Translations under genes and position numbers: made by a program | Shown: piece by piece, positions 23,868 through 32,979 of the stretch | How the letters are laid out: every line of letters begins with the position of its first letter | Numbering within the stretch: position 1 is the first letter of the stretch | From: Thermoplasmatota archaeon | Lineage (GTDB): Archaea > Thermoplasmatota > Thermoplasmata > UBA10834 | NCBI GenBank assembly: GCA_018818785.1 | Contig: JAHIRF010000008.1 | Span: forward strand, 124,001-188,000 | Direction of reading: 5' to 3' | DNA length: 64,000 nucleotides | Notes under the pieces: generated by a model | What the model was told of the DNA's origin: nothing | What the model saw: the letters and a program-made list of their open reading frames with translations, nothing else | Databases searched by the model: none

Positions 23868-23908
23868 CTCCAACATAGTGATTGTTCTAAATATGTTGTT
23901 TATTGGAG
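23868..23908. repeat. Nested inverted repeats between hpt and the TctA-like gene
   Basis: CTCCAA (23868-23873) pairs with TTGGAG (23903-23908), while the overlapping CAACATA (23871-23877) pairs with TATGTTG (23892-23898). The two pairings exclude each other. The AT-rich centre also resembles a promoter. It could be a terminator or an operator. Confidence 0.35.
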
Positions 23909-23974
23909 CATAGACTCTCTAGTGATCCGAAGCCTACTTGCAGTCATCATATCGAGTATTTCCGCACCCTTTGG

Positions 23975-25378
23975 ATGTCCGTGTCCGACATAGGTCTCCT
24001 CGCATCGATAGCCGTCTCTTCGACCGCAGGTTTCATCCTGGGCTTCGTCACGGGTCTGGTCCCCGGCCTTCATGTGAACAACGTCGCAGCCGCTGTCGTC
24101 GCCTATGCCGGAACCATGCTTGGATGCTTCGCGGTCATGGGTGAGCTGCTGGGATGTGACGCCCCTGGGCTGCTGATATCGTGCTTTCTGGTGTCCGCCT
24201 TGGTATCGCACAACTTCTCGGAAGCTGCGCCCAACACTTTCGTGGGCGTCCCTGCGTCGGATGCTGTATCCGTCCTGCCGGCGCATAGGCTAGCGAAGGC
24301 AGGCCTCGGCTGGCTCGCGGTCAGATCATCCATAGATGGATCGATGGCGGGTGTGCTGCTCGCAACAGTCATGATCGTGCCAGTCTGCCTCTGTATGGGT
24401 CCTTGGATCGGAATCTACGCCGCCCTCAAGACGGTGATGGGAGTCCTGATCATCCTGTTCTCCGTGATTCTAGTCCTCTCTGATCGTGGGTCCAACGATC
24501 CAATATCTGGTAGCGTGGGTGACAGGGTAAGGATCGCGATGATCGCATCTGGCATCTTCATAATCTCCGGACTTCTGGGCATGGTGGTTCTGGAGAGCGA
24601 TTATTTCTGCTCGGACCTATCGCCACTTCCATTCGGTTCGGAGCCGATTCCATCCTCGTCTTTGCTGCTCCCTCTGTTTGCGGGGTTGTTCGGCTTACCG
24701 ACGCTTCTGCTGAGCCTGTCACAGGAAGAGGGCGCTTATGTCGAGATGGCGCGCGGCATCAAATTGTCTGCTGGCAAATATCGTTCGGAGAGTCTCCTGA
24801 CAGTGTTTGGAGGATTGCTGGTCGGCTGGATCCCTGGCATGACCTCGGGGTCTTCGGCCACGTTATGTGCGATCATCGCTAGGAAGCCGCTGGGAGAAGG
24901 CTGTGGCGTGGACGCGTCGAGGCGTTTCATATGGCTATATTCCGCGATCTCATCTGCGGGGGCTGTGCTCTCAGTTGGCGCTCTGTTCGTGATATTACGC
25001 GCGCGTAGTGGCGTCATGGATGCAGTGACGATATTCCTTGGAGAGATCGACCCATTCGACGGAGAGATGGGAGACTTGGTCGCGCCGTGTGCGCTCCTGT
25101 TGTCGATGATGCTGTCAGCCATCGCCTCCCATTCGCTCATGCAATCGATGCGCGGCATACTGAAGCGAGGCGCGAAGCATCTCCTGTCCAAGAGATTGAC
25201 CATCACCTGCATCATTTTCATATGCGTCCTGGCAGCGGCCCTCACAGGCTTCAGAGGCATATTGCTGATGTCCGCCGCATGCTCGCTCGGTCTACTCCCT
25301 CCGAGGCTTGGCGTCCGTAGGATCCATCTTATGGGGTGCCTGCTAGTGCCCATATCGATATCGTTCTTGACGGGGTGA
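23975..25378 (+). CDS. TctA-like (tripartite tricarboxylate transporter) permease
   Basis: The 467-residue polytopic protein has about 10-12 helices. Two inverted halves carry the paired Gly-Pro-Gly-type signatures GLVPGLHVNNVA (about residue 28) and GWIPGMTSGSSATL (about 290), as in TctA/DUF112 membrane proteins. Bacterial TctA imports carboxylates with a periplasmic binding protein TctC and small subunit TctB; neither is nearby, and archaeal members usually stand alone. ATG 23975 is chosen; a TTG at 23903 lies inside the inverted repeat upstream. Confidence 0.78.
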   Translation: MSVSDIGLLASIAVSSTAGFILGFVTGLVPGLHVNNVAAAVVAYAGTMLGCFAVMGELLGCDAPGLLISCFLVSALVSHNFSEAAPNTFVGVPASDAVSVLPAHRLAKAGLGWLAVRSSIDGSMAGVLLATVMIVPVCLCMGPWIGIYAALKTVMGVLIILFSVILVLSDRGSNDPISGSVGDRVRIAMIASGIFIISGLLGMVVLESDYFCSDLSPLPFGSEPIPSSSLLLPLFAGLFGLPTLLLSLSQEEGAYVEMARGIKLSAGKYRSESLLTVFGGLLVGWIPGMTSGSSATLCAIIARKPLGEGCGVDASRRFIWLYSAISSAGAVLSVGALFVILRARSGVMDAVTIFLGEIDPFDGEMGDLVAPCALLLSMMLSAIASHSLMQSMRGILKRGAKHLLSKRLTITCIIFICVLAAALTGFRGILLMSAACSLGLLPPRLGVRRIHLMGCLLVPISISFLTG

Positions 25379-25491: not shown

Positions 25492-25992
25492 TTAATCCTT
25501 CTCTTCAGAAGGAGGCCAGGGCTCAATACCCAGCTCATCAGGTCCGCCTGCCCAAGGCACGCGCCCTTCCACCTTTATTGTGATCTCTTCACCAGTGTCG
25601 AGGTTGACTATCTTCCACGCCTCGAGCACTGTTATGTCATCCACTAGCTTCAGCACACCGGTGACGTTCACTCTGTCACCTACGCTGACGACGTCCTTCA
25701 CTGTCACTTCCTGGGTGGACCAGTACCACCATGGACCGAACTTCACGAGGACCTCCTCGCCGTCGTCAGTCTCTAGGATGAACGCGCCCTCTCGTTCCTC
25801 GCAGAGGTCGCAGCAATCGTCAACATCCGTTTCATTGTAGTTGTCACAGCAGACGAACTCTGTGACTGTTCCTTCGACCGAGATGAGTTCGCATGCACCG
25901 TCGGAATTTGTGAATGCGATCGTTGCGGGCACGGCTATGAGTGCGAAAACAGCTATTGCGACAACAGGTACCGTGTATTTTGAACCGAACAT
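25492..25992 (-). CDS. Secreted OB-fold-like protein with a cysteine cluster
   Basis: The 166-residue protein has an N-terminal hydrophobic segment (residues about 8-27) acting as signal peptide or anchor. The rest resembles an extracytoplasmic OB-fold: ISVEGTVTEF, then VSVGDRVNVTGVLK and ITVLEAWKIV strands, as in nucleic-acid- or cofactor-binding secreted OB proteins. An insertion after the first strand contains CC...CC..C within 20 residues, suitable for a metal site or disulfides. GGGGAGGAC precedes the start and a TATA box lies at 26044-26051. Function unknown. Confidence 0.65.
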   Translation of the reverse strand: MFGSKYTVPVVAIAVFALIAVPATIAFTNSDGACELISVEGTVTEFVCCDNYNETDVDDCCDLCEEREGAFILETDDGEEVLVKFGPWWYWSTQEVTVKDVVSVGDRVNVTGVLKLVDDITVLEAWKIVNLDTGEEITIKVEGRVPWAGGPDELGIEPWPPSEEKD

Positions 25993-26110: not shown

Positions 26111-28792
26111 CTAACATAACAATGTATTGCGCAATTTTGCGCATCCGTGTCCCATCGGGAGTAGCATCGTCTCTGCAGCCCTCAGCAACAGCTCCACATA
26201 CGCGCTAGCATCGTATTCTTCGTATCCTGTGAGCAGGATCTCCGCCCTAACCCTCTCTTCTAGATCCTTGCTCTTCGAGGCTGTAATGACGTATCCTATG
26301 CACTCACCTGGCTTCACATCGATACCCTCGTCGCTCAGCTGGGACAACGCCGCGACAGAGTCGTTCAGCTGTGTGTATCCGTCGAGCGGTTTGGATACCT
26401 TCTTCGTGAGTACCAACTTATTCATGGGGATTGTGCCCGATTTGATGTCATCGACATATCTTTCTATGACTTCCAATGCTGCTGGCACGAGCCTCTTCAA
26501 ACCATCTGCGTCGTCCGCTTGAGAGAAACGATCGAGGACATCTGTCTGCATGTCCCTCACGATTCCTGGTGTGTCCCTGCGTCTCAACTCTATGCCCCTC
26601 AGCTTCAACTTCCCGTTCTCGAACATGCCGTAGTACCTGTTCAGGACGCCGACGCCGTTCGTCTTGTCAGGCAGGAACACGATCCATTTGTAAACCCCTT
26701 CGGGTTCGAGCGGTATGCCTATGTGCCCGGAGGCATGCTCGCAGAACCTCTCAGGGTCCCCTGTGCCCTTGAGCCAAAGTGAGTCGACTATACCGTGGAG
26801 TATCTCGAACCCGTGGGCCTCGGCTATCTCGGATGCCTGGAGCAATATCTCCCTTCCGTAGGCGTTGATCGCCTCGTGACATTCTATTCGCCCGAACCTC
26901 GCGTTCTTGTATCCAGTATATCCGAAACAGTTGTGCGTGAGTATCCCGTTGGAGAGAGCGAACCCGTGCATCGGTCCATCCACCGAGAAACAGTAGACGT
27001 GTCGGCCAGATGTCTCGGTCCTACTGACGGAATCTATCCTTACCTCGGACAGATGACGGCCCCTCCTCGCCTCTGGGTCGTAGAGCGGGAGTATTCGCGG
27101 GACCAGGTCTCCCGCGGCCAGCGAGTCCGCACGTCGCACCTCCAGCACACTGCCATCGAAAATGTAACTGGGATGGTCAGGAGTCACCACGATACGGTCC
27201 CCATCGATAGTAAGCTCCACCATCTCCTCGGGCGCTTCGAATCTGAACGCGGTCACCGCTGATTTCATAGCGGGTTGCTGGTATCGGTCCAGGCCGAACA
27301 GGTTCAACGAACCTCTAACCCTGTGCTCGCCACACCCTCTTCCGGCCACCCTGTCGATGATGTCCCGTATCGCCTCGATCCCGAACCTGCCGTCGAGCTT
27401 GAACGGTATCTCCGTGGACCCGTCCAGGCAAGTCACAAGGAGCCATTTCAGTATGTCCACGCGCTCCTTGTAGTCTTTCGTGTCCCCTACGCCGTCCCTC
27501 ACCCGCCTCTTCAGCGTCGTCCTGCGGTCGACCACTGGTTTCAGGACCCTAGGTATCAGCCCATGTCTCCTGTCGCATATGCCATATCCAAGCACGGGCA
27601 CTCTCATGGATGGCTCGGGACAGCAGGAGCACATGATCGTCTCGGGCGAGATGTTGAACTTGGCCATGATGTTCGGATAGAGCGATGTGAAGTCCACTTC
27701 GAGCACATGGTCATGGACGCCGACTACTGGCTCGTAGATGAACCCGCCCCTATCCGCCAATATCAACTCCTGCGCAGTCTTGAACCCCTCTGGCAGGTTC
27801 TTCTTCCACAGCACTACGCATCCATCCTTGAGCGCCTGGTTCACTTCCATCGCGCTGATAGCGCTCCCGGGCGACAGACGCGCCAGCTCCTGGACAGGCA
27901 CCGAAGATATCCTCGAGAGGTCGATAAGTCCGTTCAACCCACTCTCGACATACATGAACGAGCTGGTCTTGTCTATGTGGATTCGCCCTCTGAGCTTGTA
28001 CGATGGTGGCTTGTACTTGATCTGGCCATATGTGAAGTACGACTTGCCTCTCCTATCCGTGTTTAGGTCGTCATCGTCCCGACCGAGGCGCAGGCGGTCC
28101 ATGCCAATCTGCTTGGCCTTGTTGTATAGGTAAGGTATGTCGAATATGTCTCCGAATTCTGTGCATATGATATCTGGATCGAGTCTGTCTAGGGTATCAA
28201 CGACCCCTTTCAGTACCCGTTCCTCGTCTCCGTCTATCGTGGTGTCGCCCACCCTCGCGGATACGAGCTTGTCGTCCATGGCCGGCATCCTGTTCTTCGC
28301 AGCCACGGACACATTCAGTTCCGCGCTTGTCAACGGTGGCTTCTCGTAATCTAAGGCGAAGCGGTCGTCGAGCATGGCCGGTTTCGGCTTCAACTCCATC
28401 AGCCCGAGCGGGAAGATATCCTTCTCATGGAAGAACCGCTGGCTGAAACGCAGGTCTACGTTGAACAAAGAGTATCTCTTGTATTTTCCGCGATTGTCTA
28501 TCGTGTGGGCGACGTCCTCTATCCTCGAGAACTTCCTTATGCCGATGCCGAGCACCTCGCGCGGCTCCTCGCCCAACCAGGTACTCTTCATCTCGCGCTC
28601 AACATTCGCTACAGCGTCCAATATCGGGAGCGCCTTCTCCAGCTCATCCATATCGTCTCTGGACGAGTGCGCGAATATCTTCGGCACGAACGAACGCTCG
28701 ACGATCTTGTGCGCTCCCTTCCTGGTCTTGATCCAGTAGACGATGGAGTTGTCCTTGTAATCGGGATATATGTCGAGCAGCCAGCCCCTCAT
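26111..28792 (-). CDS. B-family DNA polymerase (divergent, PolB2-like) interrupted by a mini-intein
   Basis: The 893-residue precursor gives a 726-residue polymerase after splicing. Motif A is EVDFTSLYPNI (365-375). Motif B is KWLLVT joined to CFGYTGYKN across the intein. Motif C reads HGIVDS (666-671), keeping the second catalytic Asp but lacking the first of the usual GDTDS. The exonuclease region keeps FDIPYLYNKA, but the DIE motif is replaced (LNVSVAAKN) and Exo III is not recognisable, so proofreading is probably lost. Its start overlaps the stop of a small protein gene, itself overlapping a RecA-like gene. A role in translesion synthesis or repair, rather than replication, is inferred. 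Confidence 0.88.
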   Translation of the reverse strand: MRGWLLDIYPDYKDNSIVYWIKTRKGAHKIVERSFVPKIFAHSSRDDMDELEKALPILDAVANVEREMKSTWLGEEPREVLGIGIRKFSRIEDVAHTIDNRGKYKRYSLFNVDLRFSQRFFHEKDIFPLGLMELKPKPAMLDDRFALDYEKPPLTSAELNVSVAAKNRMPAMDDKLVSARVGDTTIDGDEERVLKGVVDTLDRLDPDIICTEFGDIFDIPYLYNKAKQIGMDRLRLGRDDDDLNTDRRGKSYFTYGQIKYKPPSYKLRGRIHIDKTSSFMYVESGLNGLIDLSRISSVPVQELARLSPGSAISAMEVNQALKDGCVVLWKKNLPEGFKTAQELILADRGGFIYEPVVGVHDHVLEVDFTSLYPNIMAKFNISPETIMCSCCPEPSMRVPVLGYGICDRRHGLIPRVLKPVVDRRTTLKRRVRDGVGDTKDYKERVDILKWLLVTCLDGSTEIPFKLDGRFGIEAIRDIIDRVAGRGCGEHRVRGSLNLFGLDRYQQPAMKSAVTAFRFEAPEEMVELTIDGDRIVVTPDHPSYIFDGSVLEVRRADSLAAGDLVPRILPLYDPEARRGRHLSEVRIDSVSRTETSGRHVYCFSVDGPMHGFALSNGILTHNCFGYTGYKNARFGRIECHEAINAYGREILLQASEIAEAHGFEILHGIVDSLWLKGTGDPERFCEHASGHIGIPLEPEGVYKWIVFLPDKTNGVGVLNRYYGMFENGKLKLRGIELRRRDTPGIVRDMQTDVLDRFSQADDADGLKRLVPAALEVIERYVDDIKSGTIPMNKLVLTKKVSKPLDGYTQLNDSVAALSQLSDEGIDVKPGECIGYVITASKSKDLEERVRAEILLTGYEEYDASAYVELLLRAAETMLLPMGHGCAKLRNTLLC
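26930..27430 (-). other. Mini-intein (167 residues) in the DNA polymerase
   Basis: Precursor residues 455-621. Block A begins with Cys in CLDGSTEIPF. Block B is VTPDHPSY, with the TxxH pattern. Block F is HVYCFSVDGPMHGFAL. Block G ends NGILTHN, followed by Cys622 as the +1 nucleophile. There is no LAGLIDADG or HNH endonuclease between B and F, so this is a splicing-only mini-intein. It splits polymerase motif B immediately before the residue equivalent to Ser of the classical NSxYG. Confidence 0.92.
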
Positions 28793-29064
28793 CTATCGGA
28801 CTCACCGCTCCAAACACTCCCATCCTCTTCCGAGCATTCGTTCTTCTTCCTCAGGGCGAGCAACTCTTTCTCGTGTTCCAGGAGCATCGAGAGCAGAGCG
28901 GACTCCGTCGGGTCCATGCTTATCGCGTATGTCGCAGCAGAGGCGTGCATGCGGGCCCTGTTCATCAGCGAGTCGAAAGCCACCCTGTCATCCTTCCTCA
29001 GCGCCCTTCTGAAATCGTTCCATTGCCTGGCCATCGCCTCAAGTGCTAGGCGATATGTAGGCAC
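28789..29064 (-). CDS. Small conserved helical protein encoded between RecA-like and polymerase genes
   Basis: The 91-residue protein, from GTG 29064 after GGGGAGGAC, begins MPTYRLALEAMARQWNDFRR. It is almost entirely helical, with an acidic/Ser-rich tail. It overlaps the polymerase start by four bases (ATGA) and the 3' end of the RecA-like gene by 26 bases, so the three are translationally coupled. I know similar short proteins next to archaeal polymerase genes but no assigned function. An accessory or bridging subunit is inference. A GTG at 29088 is an alternative start. Confidence 0.7.
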   Translation of the reverse strand: MPTYRLALEAMARQWNDFRRALRKDDRVAFDSLMNRARMHASAATYAISMDPTESALLSMLLEHEKELLALRKKNECSEEDGSVWSGESDR

Positions 29065-29835
29065 CGTCCTCCCCGTCGTGATCACCACCGTACTCGTCTA
29101 ACGTGGACTGGTTCCACGGGACCGGATGGAATAGTGTGGACCTCCCCTCCTTTGGTAGATTGAAGACGGTCCCATCCTTCTTCTCTTTCATGTGGATGAC
29201 GCGATCAGCCTGGACGCGTATCAGCGCAGTCAGCCTGTTGTCCGTTCTACCATATCCCGCGGTGTGGTCCGTGACGAAAGATATGGTCTCATGCTCCTGG
29301 GTCATCCTCCTTATGTCGTCTACGCACCTCCTCAGTAACTGGTACGATTCCGCCCACTTCATGTCCTTGTCCTGGAAGAGGTCTGTGAGCGACGACACTA
29401 TTACCACAGCAGGAGTGCTCTCGATGATCTCCTGCTCGAGCTTTTCATCTATGAGCGTGACGAGTTGGTATGCCGTGAACGCCCGCGAGATGTTCACCCT
29501 GGAGAGCACATCCCTCTTGTCCATGCGCATCTTCTTGCACAGGGCGCTTATCGAGTACGGATCGACCGTGTTCCCGCCGTCGATCCACACGACCTCCTCG
29601 TCGAACTCATGCACCGCTTTGACGCATAGTAGATGAAGTAGGGTGGACGCGTAGCCCGTATCCCCCTCGAACAGTACCAATTCTGATGCCCTGAAGCCGC
29701 CTACGAGCCTGTCCAGGGGCGCGACCGATGTTCGGAGTACACGCTCGACATGCAGCGTTTCCTCTTCGAACTCGTGCGCTAATGGATGGACCTGAGCGTA
29801 GGCTGGCCTATGGTCGTGCGTGGTATCACCGGCAT
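29039..29835 (-). CDS. RecA-superfamily protein without Walker residues; apparent frameshift near the 5' end
   Basis: The RecA-like core includes LDRLVGG, GDTGYASTL in place of Walker A (no Lys), WIDGGN, SRAFTAYQL and VVIVSSLTD in place of Walker B (no acidic residue). ATP hydrolysis is therefore unlikely. In the core frame the first usable start is TTG 29680, yet similarity continues upstream (LRTSVAPLDRLVGGFRAS) to about 29783. A well-placed ATG at 29835 after GGAGGAT opens a frame that ends 18 codons later at 29779-29781. A one-base shift between 29783 and 29807 would join them: either a sequencing error or a broken N-terminus. It is comparable in design to bacterial ImuA. Confidence 0.68.
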
Positions 29836-30126
29836 GATTCTATCCTCCGCGCGGGAGTTAAAGCGATAGCCTGGGGAGGGCGGTGAAACTAGTCATGATA
29901 GATGCACGCACCCGCGTCATATCCCCCAATACCTTATGGGACGTCTCAAGCTCTTGACCGGCGGGTCTTCCGATGGGGCACAAATCGGGTCAGTGGTGCA
30001 TTGCGCCAGCATGATCGGGAATTTTGTCCCGATTGTAAACCATAAACCAATGTTTAAGTATCCATAGCATGCTCTTTAGCGATAGTCCAGCAGCTGAAAG
30101 GGACTGGCCCGGAAGAGTTGAGATAT
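29836..30126. promoter_or_regulatory. Divergent promoter region with palindrome (RecA-like/polymerase operon and coiled-coil ATPase)
   Basis: For the plus-strand gene TTTAAGTA at 30053-30060 is a TATA box; a perfect inverted repeat ATCGGGA-attttg-TCCCGAT at 30014-30033 lies 20 bp upstream of it, where an activator could sit. For the minus strand a weaker CTTTAACT lies near 29858-29865. The rest of the 290 bp shows no gene. Confidence 0.5.
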
Positions 30127-32979
30127 ATGGCGCCCAGATCGACTAAGAAGAAATCATCTGCGGCGACTGCGCCAAAGATCACTTCACGAGTCCGTGACAA
30201 GTATTCTAGTGATATCGAAGCCTCAGAGGCACCAAGGTCCAGGAAGGCAGCGATGCTCCAACTGAGGATGGGGCGGTTGGCACATGTCCTGGGCATAGCA
30301 TCCGGACTCGCTCTGGCCGTCACCGCGGTCCTCGCATATCTTCTGGAGAACTGGAGCTATCTCACGGACGCTCCCGAGTTCGTGACCGCGTTGAAATGGG
30401 TGGTCCCGCTCGTCGGAGGCCTGGCCGTTGCAATAGTCGCGATAGCGATGAAGTGGGAGCCGTACTTCGCGGACCGCACAGACCCGCATTTCATAATGAG
30501 CGCCGCATCGGTCGCGGTGCCCTCGGTTCTGATTGCCCTAGTGGCCCTAGACGAGGGCGGGTACATCGCCATTGGTCGGCCAGATTGGCTCTATTCCGTA
30601 TCGTTGCTCGGCATGAGCTTAACCTTGATCTCATTGGCGATGACCTGGGAAGGCACCAGTCGTCGCAAGATAATCAGCATAGCATCCGCGGTGTTCCCTC
30701 CAGTCCTTCTGATATTCCCCATGTTGTTCAGATTCACCCCGCTCGAGCTGGCCAGCATACTGCCCATGGCATACCTGGGCAGCGCGGTGTCGATCCAGTT
30801 GAGCGGTTCGATGCTCCACATAATCGCGAGCTCCACGAACGTCCAGGAGCGCGAGGTCCTGAAGGCGAGCGACGGGAAGCTCAAGATGATCATAGTGGAC
30901 GTCGAGAAGCGCAAGGAGGCGCTCGAGTACAGAGAGGACGCGCTACGTTCAAGGGAATCGGACCTGGAGGCCTACGAGAAGCGTCTGTCCGAGGAGCTGG
31001 CATCGATCGATGACGGAAAGCGGCAGATTGAGTCTATGGAAGCGGAGCTCCAGCAGCGCATCAATCAATCCAGACGAGCAGCCGAGGAGCTTGCGCGGAA
31101 GGATGTCGATAACGAGGGCAAGCTGGACACATTGCGCTTGATGCAGGCAGACATCGACGTGCAGAAGAATACGCTCGATAAATCGCTCAAATTGATATCG
31201 TCCAAAGAACAGAAGTTGGCGGCAAGGGAAGCAGAGGCCGAGAAGGTGCTCCTGGACGTACACGCTAAGGAGCGCGATGCCCGAGCGAAGTTCGGCGACG
31301 CCGGAGCTCAGGAGGCCGAGCTCGAGCTGTGGGCGAAGGAACTTGACGCGCTGAAAAGATCTCTCGCGGAAAGGGAGAAGCATCTGAGCATGAGGGAGAA
31401 CTCCCTCGACATGAAGAGCGTGGAACTCATCGCAGCGAAGGAACAGCTGGGCAAGGTCGCAGCAGAGAGGAACATAGTTAAGAGCATCGAGCAGCAGCTC
31501 CTGCTGAAGCAGGAATCTGTCGCCGAGAAAGAGATCTCTCTACGGGAGAAAGAGACCTCGCTCAGGATGGCCTCTGAGCGCGCACAAAGGCTGATAGAAC
31601 GCTCGGACAAACAGATGAACGAGCTAGTAGACAAGGAGAATACATTACTCAAGCGCGAGAAAGCCTTCGCAGACCGGGAAGCGGAGCTGAGGAACTCGAT
31701 GAGCAAGCTCAATACCCAGCTGGAGGAGATCGAGCGAGCGAAGGATTCCGCGGGCGAGAGGGAGAAGCAATACCTGTCACTTTCCGAGAACACCAGGACC
31801 AAGATCGCCAGCGTATCAGCAAAGGAGCAGGAGCTCAGCAGGAAGATGGCCGCCCTCGAGAGACGCGAGTCGAGCATCAAGGACCTGGAGCAACGGATCA
31901 GGGCCGAGCAGGAACAGATGAACTCGAAGTTGAGGACTCTGCTCGAGAGGGAGAAGGGTCTGAAGGCTGACGAAACGAAGATGACACTCAGGAGCGCAGA
32001 GCTGAAGGCCCGTGAGAGGGACATGCTCCGGTCGGTCGAGGATGTCGAGAGTGCGCGTGCCGAGATATCACCTGCAGATGATCATTCAAAAACGATAGAG
32101 CTGCGCGAGAGACGCCTTCGGGAGAAGGAGCACGAGATGAAGGCCCGGCTCTACCAGCGTGAGAAGGAGCTGGAGAACCGCGAGCACGCCCTTCAAGCGC
32201 ATCTGATGAAAGACCTGGACGAGAGCACGGAGGTACAGGAGGAGCAGAAGGAGGCGAAGGTCAAGACAGGCATAGAACGTCTGGACGATCTGCTGCTCGG
32301 TGGTATGCCGTTCGGGTCCAACATCCTGTTCGCAGGTCCGCCGTTCATAGGCAAGGAGACCGCCATGCTTCTGTTCATAGCCGAGGGACTGAAGAAAGGT
32401 GTGCCGGTCATGATCGTGACCACCTCCAAGCCGCCAGTCGAGATAGCCAAGGACATGGCTCCGATAATGCCCACATTCATGGAATTCGAGCAGCTGGGTC
32501 TTGTGAGATGGATCGACGCTACAGGTCTTCCGATAGATCCGAACAGCCGCAGGAGCAATGTCTTCAAGACGAAAGGTCAGGACGATTTCGATGGCATCCT
32601 GAAAGGTCTGGACGAATCCGTCAAACTGTCCATGTCCAGCGGGAAATCATACTTCAGGTTGGCGTATTTGTCGCTCTCTATGAGCATCACAGGCAAGGAT
32701 GATAAGCGGTCGTTCCAGTTCGTGCAGGAGTTGACCAGCAAGGTCCGTCAACATCAGGCAGTGGCCTCTTTCGCCGTGGAGAAAGGAATGCACACCGACC
32801 AGCAGCTAAACTCGATCCAGCATCAGATGACGGGCGCGGTCCACTTCAAGAGCGAGAAACAGAAGACTCTGTTGAGTATCGAGGGGATATGTGATGCCCA
32901 GACACGGGGCTGGATCGATTACAGGCACACGAACAAGGCAATCCTTATGGGAGCATTTTCACTCGAGAGGATAAGATAA
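30127..32979 (+). CDS. Membrane-anchored coiled-coil protein with C-terminal KaiC/RecA-like domain
   Basis: The 950-residue protein has three parts. Residues about 1-50 are basic and cytoplasmic, and about 50-230 hold five to six helices. About 240-700 form a long, highly charged coiled coil rich in repeated REKEL/EREK heptads. About 715-950 form a KaiC-like ATPase domain beginning GIERLDDLLLGGMPFGSN. Walker A is GPPFIGKET (737-745), with Glu where KaiC has Thr or Ser. The Walker B position (FRLAYLSLSMSI) lacks the acidic residue. The architecture suggests a membrane-tethered structural ATPase, for chromosome anchoring, signalling or motility. No described family was recognised. ATG 30127 is preferred to TTG 30118. 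Confidence 0.75.
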   Translation: MAPRSTKKKSSAATAPKITSRVRDKYSSDIEASEAPRSRKAAMLQLRMGRLAHVLGIASGLALAVTAVLAYLLENWSYLTDAPEFVTALKWVVPLVGGLAVAIVAIAMKWEPYFADRTDPHFIMSAASVAVPSVLIALVALDEGGYIAIGRPDWLYSVSLLGMSLTLISLAMTWEGTSRRKIISIASAVFPPVLLIFPMLFRFTPLELASILPMAYLGSAVSIQLSGSMLHIIASSTNVQEREVLKASDGKLKMIIVDVEKRKEALEYREDALRSRESDLEAYEKRLSEELASIDDGKRQIESMEAELQQRINQSRRAAEELARKDVDNEGKLDTLRLMQADIDVQKNTLDKSLKLISSKEQKLAAREAEAEKVLLDVHAKERDARAKFGDAGAQEAELELWAKELDALKRSLAEREKHLSMRENSLDMKSVELIAAKEQLGKVAAERNIVKSIEQQLLLKQESVAEKEISLREKETSLRMASERAQRLIERSDKQMNELVDKENTLLKREKAFADREAELRNSMSKLNTQLEEIERAKDSAGEREKQYLSLSENTRTKIASVSAKEQELSRKMAALERRESSIKDLEQRIRAEQEQMNSKLRTLLEREKGLKADETKMTLRSAELKARERDMLRSVEDVESARAEISPADDHSKTIELRERRLREKEHEMKARLYQREKELENREHALQAHLMKDLDESTEVQEEQKEAKVKTGIERLDDLLLGGMPFGSNILFAGPPFIGKETAMLLFIAEGLKKGVPVMIVTTSKPPVEIAKDMAPIMPTFMEFEQLGLVRWIDATGLPIDPNSRRSNVFKTKGQDDFDGILKGLDESVKLSMSSGKSYFRLAYLSLSMSITGKDDKRSFQFVQELTSKVRQHQAVASFAVEKGMHTDQQLNSIQHQMTGAVHFKSEKQKTLLSIEGICDAQTRGWIDYRHTNKAILMGAFSLERIR

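Follow-up and report, generated by a model that had tools for sequence, protein, structure and literature searches.

The window analyzed here is the whole of a 64,000-nucleotide stretch (positions 124,001 to 188,000 of contig JAHIRF010000008.1, assembly GCA_018818785.1), which is part of a 1.97-Mb genome bin of an uncultured Thermoplasmatota archaeon. Three co-directional, overlapping genes lie on its minus strand in the order iRadA-PPB2-PolB2, encoding an inactivated RadA paralogue, a small protein, and a family-B DNA polymerase. The genes and the parts of them discussed below are as follows, in window positions.

29825 to 29830, minus strand: Shine-Dalgarno-like GGTGAT before iRadA, its position conserved in genomes of genera g1 and g2
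29039 to 29821, minus strand: iRadA, inactivated RadA paralogue, 260 amino acids, putative start ACG at 29821-29819 (Pfam Rad51, 1.9e-8)
29087 to 29113, minus strand: PIP-box-like NQSTLDEYG (QxxLxxY/F) near the iRadA C terminus
29080 to 29089, minus strand: Shine-Dalgarno-like GGTGGTGATC before PPB2, containing in-frame GTG GTG and aligning with the GGAGGTGATC-type leaders of relatives
28789 to 29076, minus strand: PPB2 (arCOG07300-like), 95 amino acids, putative start ACG at 29076-29074
26111 to 28792, minus strand: PolB2, family-B DNA polymerase, 893 amino acids with intein and 726 spliced (Pfam DNA_pol_B, 3.1e-26)
27743 to 27784, minus strand: FKTA...ADRGG segment of PolB2, a motif like those of Rad51-type oligomerization plus a D(K/R) motif
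27674 to 27694, minus strand: PolB2 motif A, DFTSLYP, catalytic Asp kept
26930 to 27430, minus strand: mini-intein of 167 amino acids, no endonuclease domain, in polymerase motif B (KWLLVT-intein-CFGYTGY; TIGR01445 and TIGR01443 above cut-off)
26780 to 26797, minus strand: PolB2 motif C, HGIVDS, aligned to YIDTD of archaeal PolBs

The three overlapping genes had been recognized in a first-pass annotation of the window, and both the gene set and the 4-bp overlap (ATGA) between PPB2 and PolB2 were confirmed. The 26-bp overlap that it gave for iRadA and PPB2 assumes that PPB2 starts at GTG 29064, which lies inside the conserved (M)GRT motif region, so that the best conserved part of the protein would be lost; with the aligned PPB2 start the overlap is 38 bp. 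A check of the linkage within the class found that it holds: iRadA, PPB2, and PolB2 touch or overlap in most of the class loci fetched, and a minority of loci have insertions of approximately 1 kb or have partners that are missing or unlinked. Because the same arrangement recurs through the class, the three-gene arrangement is not due to chance.

PolB2 matches archaeal PolB structures at 2.8e-50 (phmmer) and is 40 to 51% identical to class relatives that have no intein. Searches with it matched relatives in 203 of 300 class genomes, a count in which the weaker matches may include other PolB groups. The earlier remark that PolB2 has GIVDS in place of GDTDS proved to be real when the protein was aligned to solved archaeal polymerases. 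The first Asp of the DxD motif is replaced with Ile and the second Asp is kept, and the form HGI-DS or HGI-DC was found in all aligned class copies. Conservation through the class extends to this second Asp, to the catalytic Asp of motif A, and to motif B (KW..LVT-CFGYTGY). Alignment to the separate PolB3, the one other PolB elsewhere in the genome, and to PolBs in the PDB bore out the further claim that neither Exo I nor Exo III is recognizable; Exo II survives only in part. As judged from these alignments, the residues of the proofreading exonuclease are lost. FKTA (or a close form) and D(K/R)GG are also conserved through the PolB2 copies of the class, and this region has been modeled as a Rad51-type docking site, the part of PolB2 that binds iRadA and PPB2 (PMC11791011).

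The first-pass annotation was also right to speak of a spliced polymerase. The mini-intein in motif B has all of the splice residues (Cys1, TPDH as TxxH, His-Asn, and Cys+1), and in every complete PolB2 copy of the family an intein of 161 to 169 amino acids occupies this site and shares these residues. The family inteins are 40 to 51% identical to the window copy, compared with 63 to 74% for the exteins. Same-site inteins, some of them longer, are present in G068, G095, G154, and other class members, and many PolB2 genes of the class have none. Because an endonuclease-free intein is kept at the polymerase active site in every family copy, splicing would be expected to still work, and a correctly joined PolB2 active site appears to be maintained.

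Structure prediction describes iRadA as a RadA core that lacks the N-terminal domain (AlphaFold2 pLDDT 85; best PDB matches RadA/Rad51). The loss of both Walker motifs, as first claimed, is real when the genome's own intact RadA is used for comparison. GDTGYAST occupies the Walker A position of iRadA, where RadA has FGSGKT, so that the Lys/Thr pair is gone, and VVIVSS occupies the Walker B position, where RadA has LLVVDS, so that the Asp is gone. These residues are replaced in the aligned iRadA homologues too. The Walker A Lys/Thr and Walker B Asp expected of an active RadA recombinase were therefore not found in iRadA. In the family Q-x-x-L/M-x-x-F/Y is conserved in the PIP-like box near the C terminus, with the Gln invariant in 25 sequences. 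The genome encodes, besides its own RadA with an intein, a third Rad51-family protein of RadB-like size. The intein of the active RadA (L169, 634-2106) lies inside the Walker A motif (GSGK/CVSG...HN/TQL).

The profile of PPB2 matched at 7.9e-40 in its own genome and found matches in 246 of 400 class genomes. The protein is predicted to form three helices (structure model, pLDDT 78), a fold for which there was no match in the PDB. Its N-terminal motif is GRTVPTYR, and (M)GRT is the most conserved motif of the PPB2 family.

An operon of iRadA, PPB2, and PolB2 was described in 2014 (Makarova, PMC4104785) and was given the name PolB2 mutasome in 2025 (Timinskas, PMC11791011). Every testable sequence mark of that system was found here: the operon with the same gene set and order, the Walker loss, the GRT arm, D(K/R)GG, the FKTA docking motif, IxD, and the decayed exonuclease; a PIP-like box is shared as well (PMC4104785, PMC11791011). 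On these sequence marks, the locus as a whole is very probably best explained as a PolB2 mutasome operon that serves lesion bypass. The proposal of a candidate archaeal error-prone mutasome was essentially correct, except that the system is already published (Makarova 2014; Feng 2020 and 2022; Timinskas 2025) and that "error-prone" needs care. What is added here is the membership of this locus as established by tests, the corrected gene starts, and three leads that are not in the cited PolB2 literature: ACG starts, a conserved upstream ANTTTC box, and a fixed motif B mini-intein. The window copy differs from the published mutasome in the motif B mini-intein and in the near-cognate starts (ACG for PPB2 and, by alignment, for iRadA); PMC11791011 does not use the terms "intein," "start codon," or "promoter."

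One other explanation is that the complex is catalytically dead and regulates replication or marks stalled forks, as was first proposed for PolB2. The lost first Asp of DxD and the decayed exonuclease would fit this possibility, and PMC4104785 proposed PolB2 inactivation with a role in repair or the regulation of replication. However, the metal-binding second Asp, the motif A Asp, and KW..LVT-CFGYTGY are conserved through the class, the same I-x-D form is active in Sulfolobus Dpo2 (PMC8764526, PMC11791011), and the splice residues of the motif B intein are intact in all family copies. A dead polymerase is thus quite unlikely. It is still more improbable that PolB2 works in replication or general repair and that its two small neighbors are linked to it by chance. 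The polymerase does belong to family B, but a separate PolB3 is encoded elsewhere in the genome, linkage of PPB2 and PolB2 recurs across many families, and the interaction motifs match. Least probable is membership in, or evolutionary relationship to, the bacterial ImuA-ImuB-DnaE2 mutasome, with which the first-pass annotation had drawn a parallel; in each system one operon encodes both a RecA/RadA-fold protein and a polymerase for lesion bypass, but the genome yielded no Y-family (ImuB-like) gene, the polymerase is of family B and not C, and PPB2 is a three-helix protein without an ImuB-like match. Homology is already refuted, with no part homologous to ImuB or DnaE2, and what remains is a functional analogy in which a RecA-fold protein is linked to a damage-tolerance polymerase.

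The Dpo2 operon of Sulfolobus islandicus has the same polymerase family and operon partners (PMC7390963, PMC8764526). Genetic evidence indicates that Sulfolobus PolB2/Dpo2 is damage inducible and solely responsible for targeted mutagenesis (PMC7390963). Purified Dpo2 is accurate on undamaged DNA, extends mismatched or lesion-paired ends, and has no exonuclease (PMC8764526). Sulfolobus also has the Y-family polymerase Dpo4, in contrast to the window archaeon, in which none was found. The closest published comparison for the PolB2 mutasome is Pol V (PMC11791011). The Pol V mutasome of E. coli (UmuD'2C-RecA) is alike in architecture, joining a lesion-bypass polymerase to a recombinase-fold partner (PMC11791011), and differs in its Y-family polymerase, its active RecA, and a different partner.

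Two further features, upstream of iRadA, were recognized in the promoter region.

29857 to 29862, minus strand: TATA-like TTTAAC, from aligned promoters of 12 family genomes
29873 to 29890, minus strand: conserved upstream box AGTTTCACCGCCCTCCCC with the hexamer ANTTTC, the sole exact copy in the genome

The 12 aligned family promoters share TTTAAC; upstream of it stands ACTA-N-N-TTCACC and then a C-rich run. The form AGTTTCACC-N3-CTCCCC with ANTTTC (29857-29890 in the window) precedes the PolB2 operon in many members of the class. ANTTTC was present upstream of 20 of 27 operons, compared with 5.6 +/- 2.1 in dinucleotide shuffles (maximum of 12 in 300), a figure that overstates independence because the 27 loci are related; the match nevertheless spans several families. 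The reverse complement was upstream of 4 of the 27. In Sulfolobus the damage regulator Orc1-2 binds ANTTTC (PMC9738581). In the window it is followed by a C-rich stretch, unlike in Sulfolobus.

These features suggest how the system may function. After DNA damage the operon would be transcribed from the promoter at approximately 29.85 kb, probably via the ANTTTC box and an Orc1/Cdc6-like regulator, and iRadA, PPB2, and PolB2 would be made from one overlapping message. The mini-intein, with its intact splice residues, would remove itself and rejoin motif B of the polymerase. According to the published model, to which the sequence motifs seen here correspond, FKTA of PolB2 would dock on iRadA as a Rad51 subunit does on its neighbor, and a PPB2 trimer would wedge its N-terminal GRT arm between PolB2, iRadA, and DNA, giving one complex of 3:1:1. 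iRadA would then be a scaffold, unable to bind or hydrolyze ATP the RadA way, and it may hold on to the PCNA clamp by the QxxLxxY at its C terminus. PolB2, without proofreading, would extend primer ends opposite or beyond lesions, as has been shown for Sulfolobus Dpo2, promoting survival at the cost of mutation.

A match to Y-family polymerases was not found in the window genome or in any of the 19 genomes of family f1, whereas 117 of 300 class genomes had one. Given this negative result, PolB2 is probably the main lesion-bypass polymerase in family f1. It is the only recognized candidate for that role there, subject to the completeness of the bins.

Several points weigh against this interpretation of the locus and its control. 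The lack of Y-family polymerases was read in part from bins that are incomplete. The ANTTTC motif is short, and ATTC replaces TTTC in six genomes of genus g3, which belongs to the same family. No regulon was tied to the box, and the genome has no second exact copy of it. The extended box is absent from both orc1/cdc6 promoters, and the two orc1/cdc6 genes are on another contig, though orc1/cdc6 is reported to be a frequent neighbor elsewhere. Two wider roles for the box were considered and set aside: a genome-wide regulon, for which a one-mismatch scan gave no more matches than a reversed control, and autoregulation of orc1/cdc6 through the extended box, which was not seen.

The gene starts also had to be reconsidered. 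The iRadA start at ATG 29835 in the first-pass annotation is in another frame, which reaches a stop after 18 codons, and in the open frame of iRadA the first ATG, GTG, or TTG is TTG 29680. Alignment with relatives places the start at ACG 29821-29819. The aligned start is TTG in G020, G006, G010, and G004, CTG in G007, and ATG in genus g3; most g1 and g2 genomes have TTG or CTG where the window genome has ACG, with GGTGA in front. A programmed frameshift joining the GTG or ATG at approximately 29829-29835 to iRadA was rejected, as g1 and g2 would need shifts in opposite directions and the GTG lies inside the Shine-Dalgarno-like GGTGA. A sequencing error behind the missing start is unlikely, as neighboring genomes also have no ATG there.

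In PPB2 of the window genome, ACG occupies the M codon of (M)GRT. The codon before GRT was start-like in all of the 93 different genomes compared (34 + 59), with ATG in 61, ACG in 12, GTG in 9, TTG in 6, and CTG in 5. The ACG cases fall in six families: f1 (two genera), f2, f7, f9, f12, and f20. Loci listed for the ACG pattern, besides 29074-29076 and 29819-29821 in the window, are L026, L028, L029, L030, L037, L063, L114, L116, L136, and L143. ACG starts of PPB2 are usually preceded by a good Shine-Dalgarno-like stretch, for example, GGAGGTGA or GGGGGG. A check for the matching anti-Shine-Dalgarno sequence found no 16S end in the window bin or in three relatives. Because there is no ATG, GTG, or TTG between the in-frame stop and the GRT motif in G007, G001, and G050, some non-standard PPB2 start is needed in those genomes. 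In other ACG cases PPB2 may instead start at a GTG or ATG that is in frame and lies within the Shine-Dalgarno-like sequence or directly next to it; in the window the candidates would be GTG 29088 or 29085. Constraint from the overlapping iRadA coding sequence was rejected as the reason for ACG, because a change from ACG to ATG in PPB2, which takes a single base, would be silent in the upstream iRadA frame in each of the eight cases checked; ACG is kept all the same.

PolB2 has an ATG start in every family copy in which the start is readable, so it is its partner proteins that have the weak starts. The chances are about even that PPB2, and in the window genome iRadA too, is translated from an ACG that has been kept or regained in six families as a brake or dosage control on a mutagenic complex, which together with the ANTTTC box would amount to two-level control of mutagenesis. 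Whether the weak starts are taken to mean regulation or mere tolerance, either meaning is one that we infer. A limited literature search found no report of ACG starts in archaea, which is no proof of absence.

The surroundings of the operon are partly shared within the family. The divergent gene at 30118-32979 (plus strand) encodes a 953-amino-acid protein with a membrane-like N terminus, a long coiled coil, and a C-terminal KaiC-like domain with Walker A GPPFIGKE, and it adjoins the operon in most of the family genomes whose flank is long enough (54 to 58% identity). Directly 3' of PolB2, at 25492-25992 (minus strand), is a gene for a predicted secreted, cysteine-containing protein of 166 amino acids, which adjoins PolB2 in many family genomes and had no clear family match. 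The TctA-family (PF01970) membrane protein gene at 23903-25378 (plus strand) is downstream of the operon throughout the family and is found beside PolB2, more distantly, in several other families.

Gene callers restricted to ATG, GTG, and TTG would truncate or miss iRadA and PPB2 at this locus. Initiation at ACG, if true, would be a kind of translational control not expected in archaea, and the occurrence of ANTTTC here suggests that the damage-response element of Sulfolobus may extend to another archaeal phylum. The operon confirms the wide distribution of the published PolB2 mutasome in Thermoplasmatota, in some of which it may be the sole dedicated lesion-bypass system.

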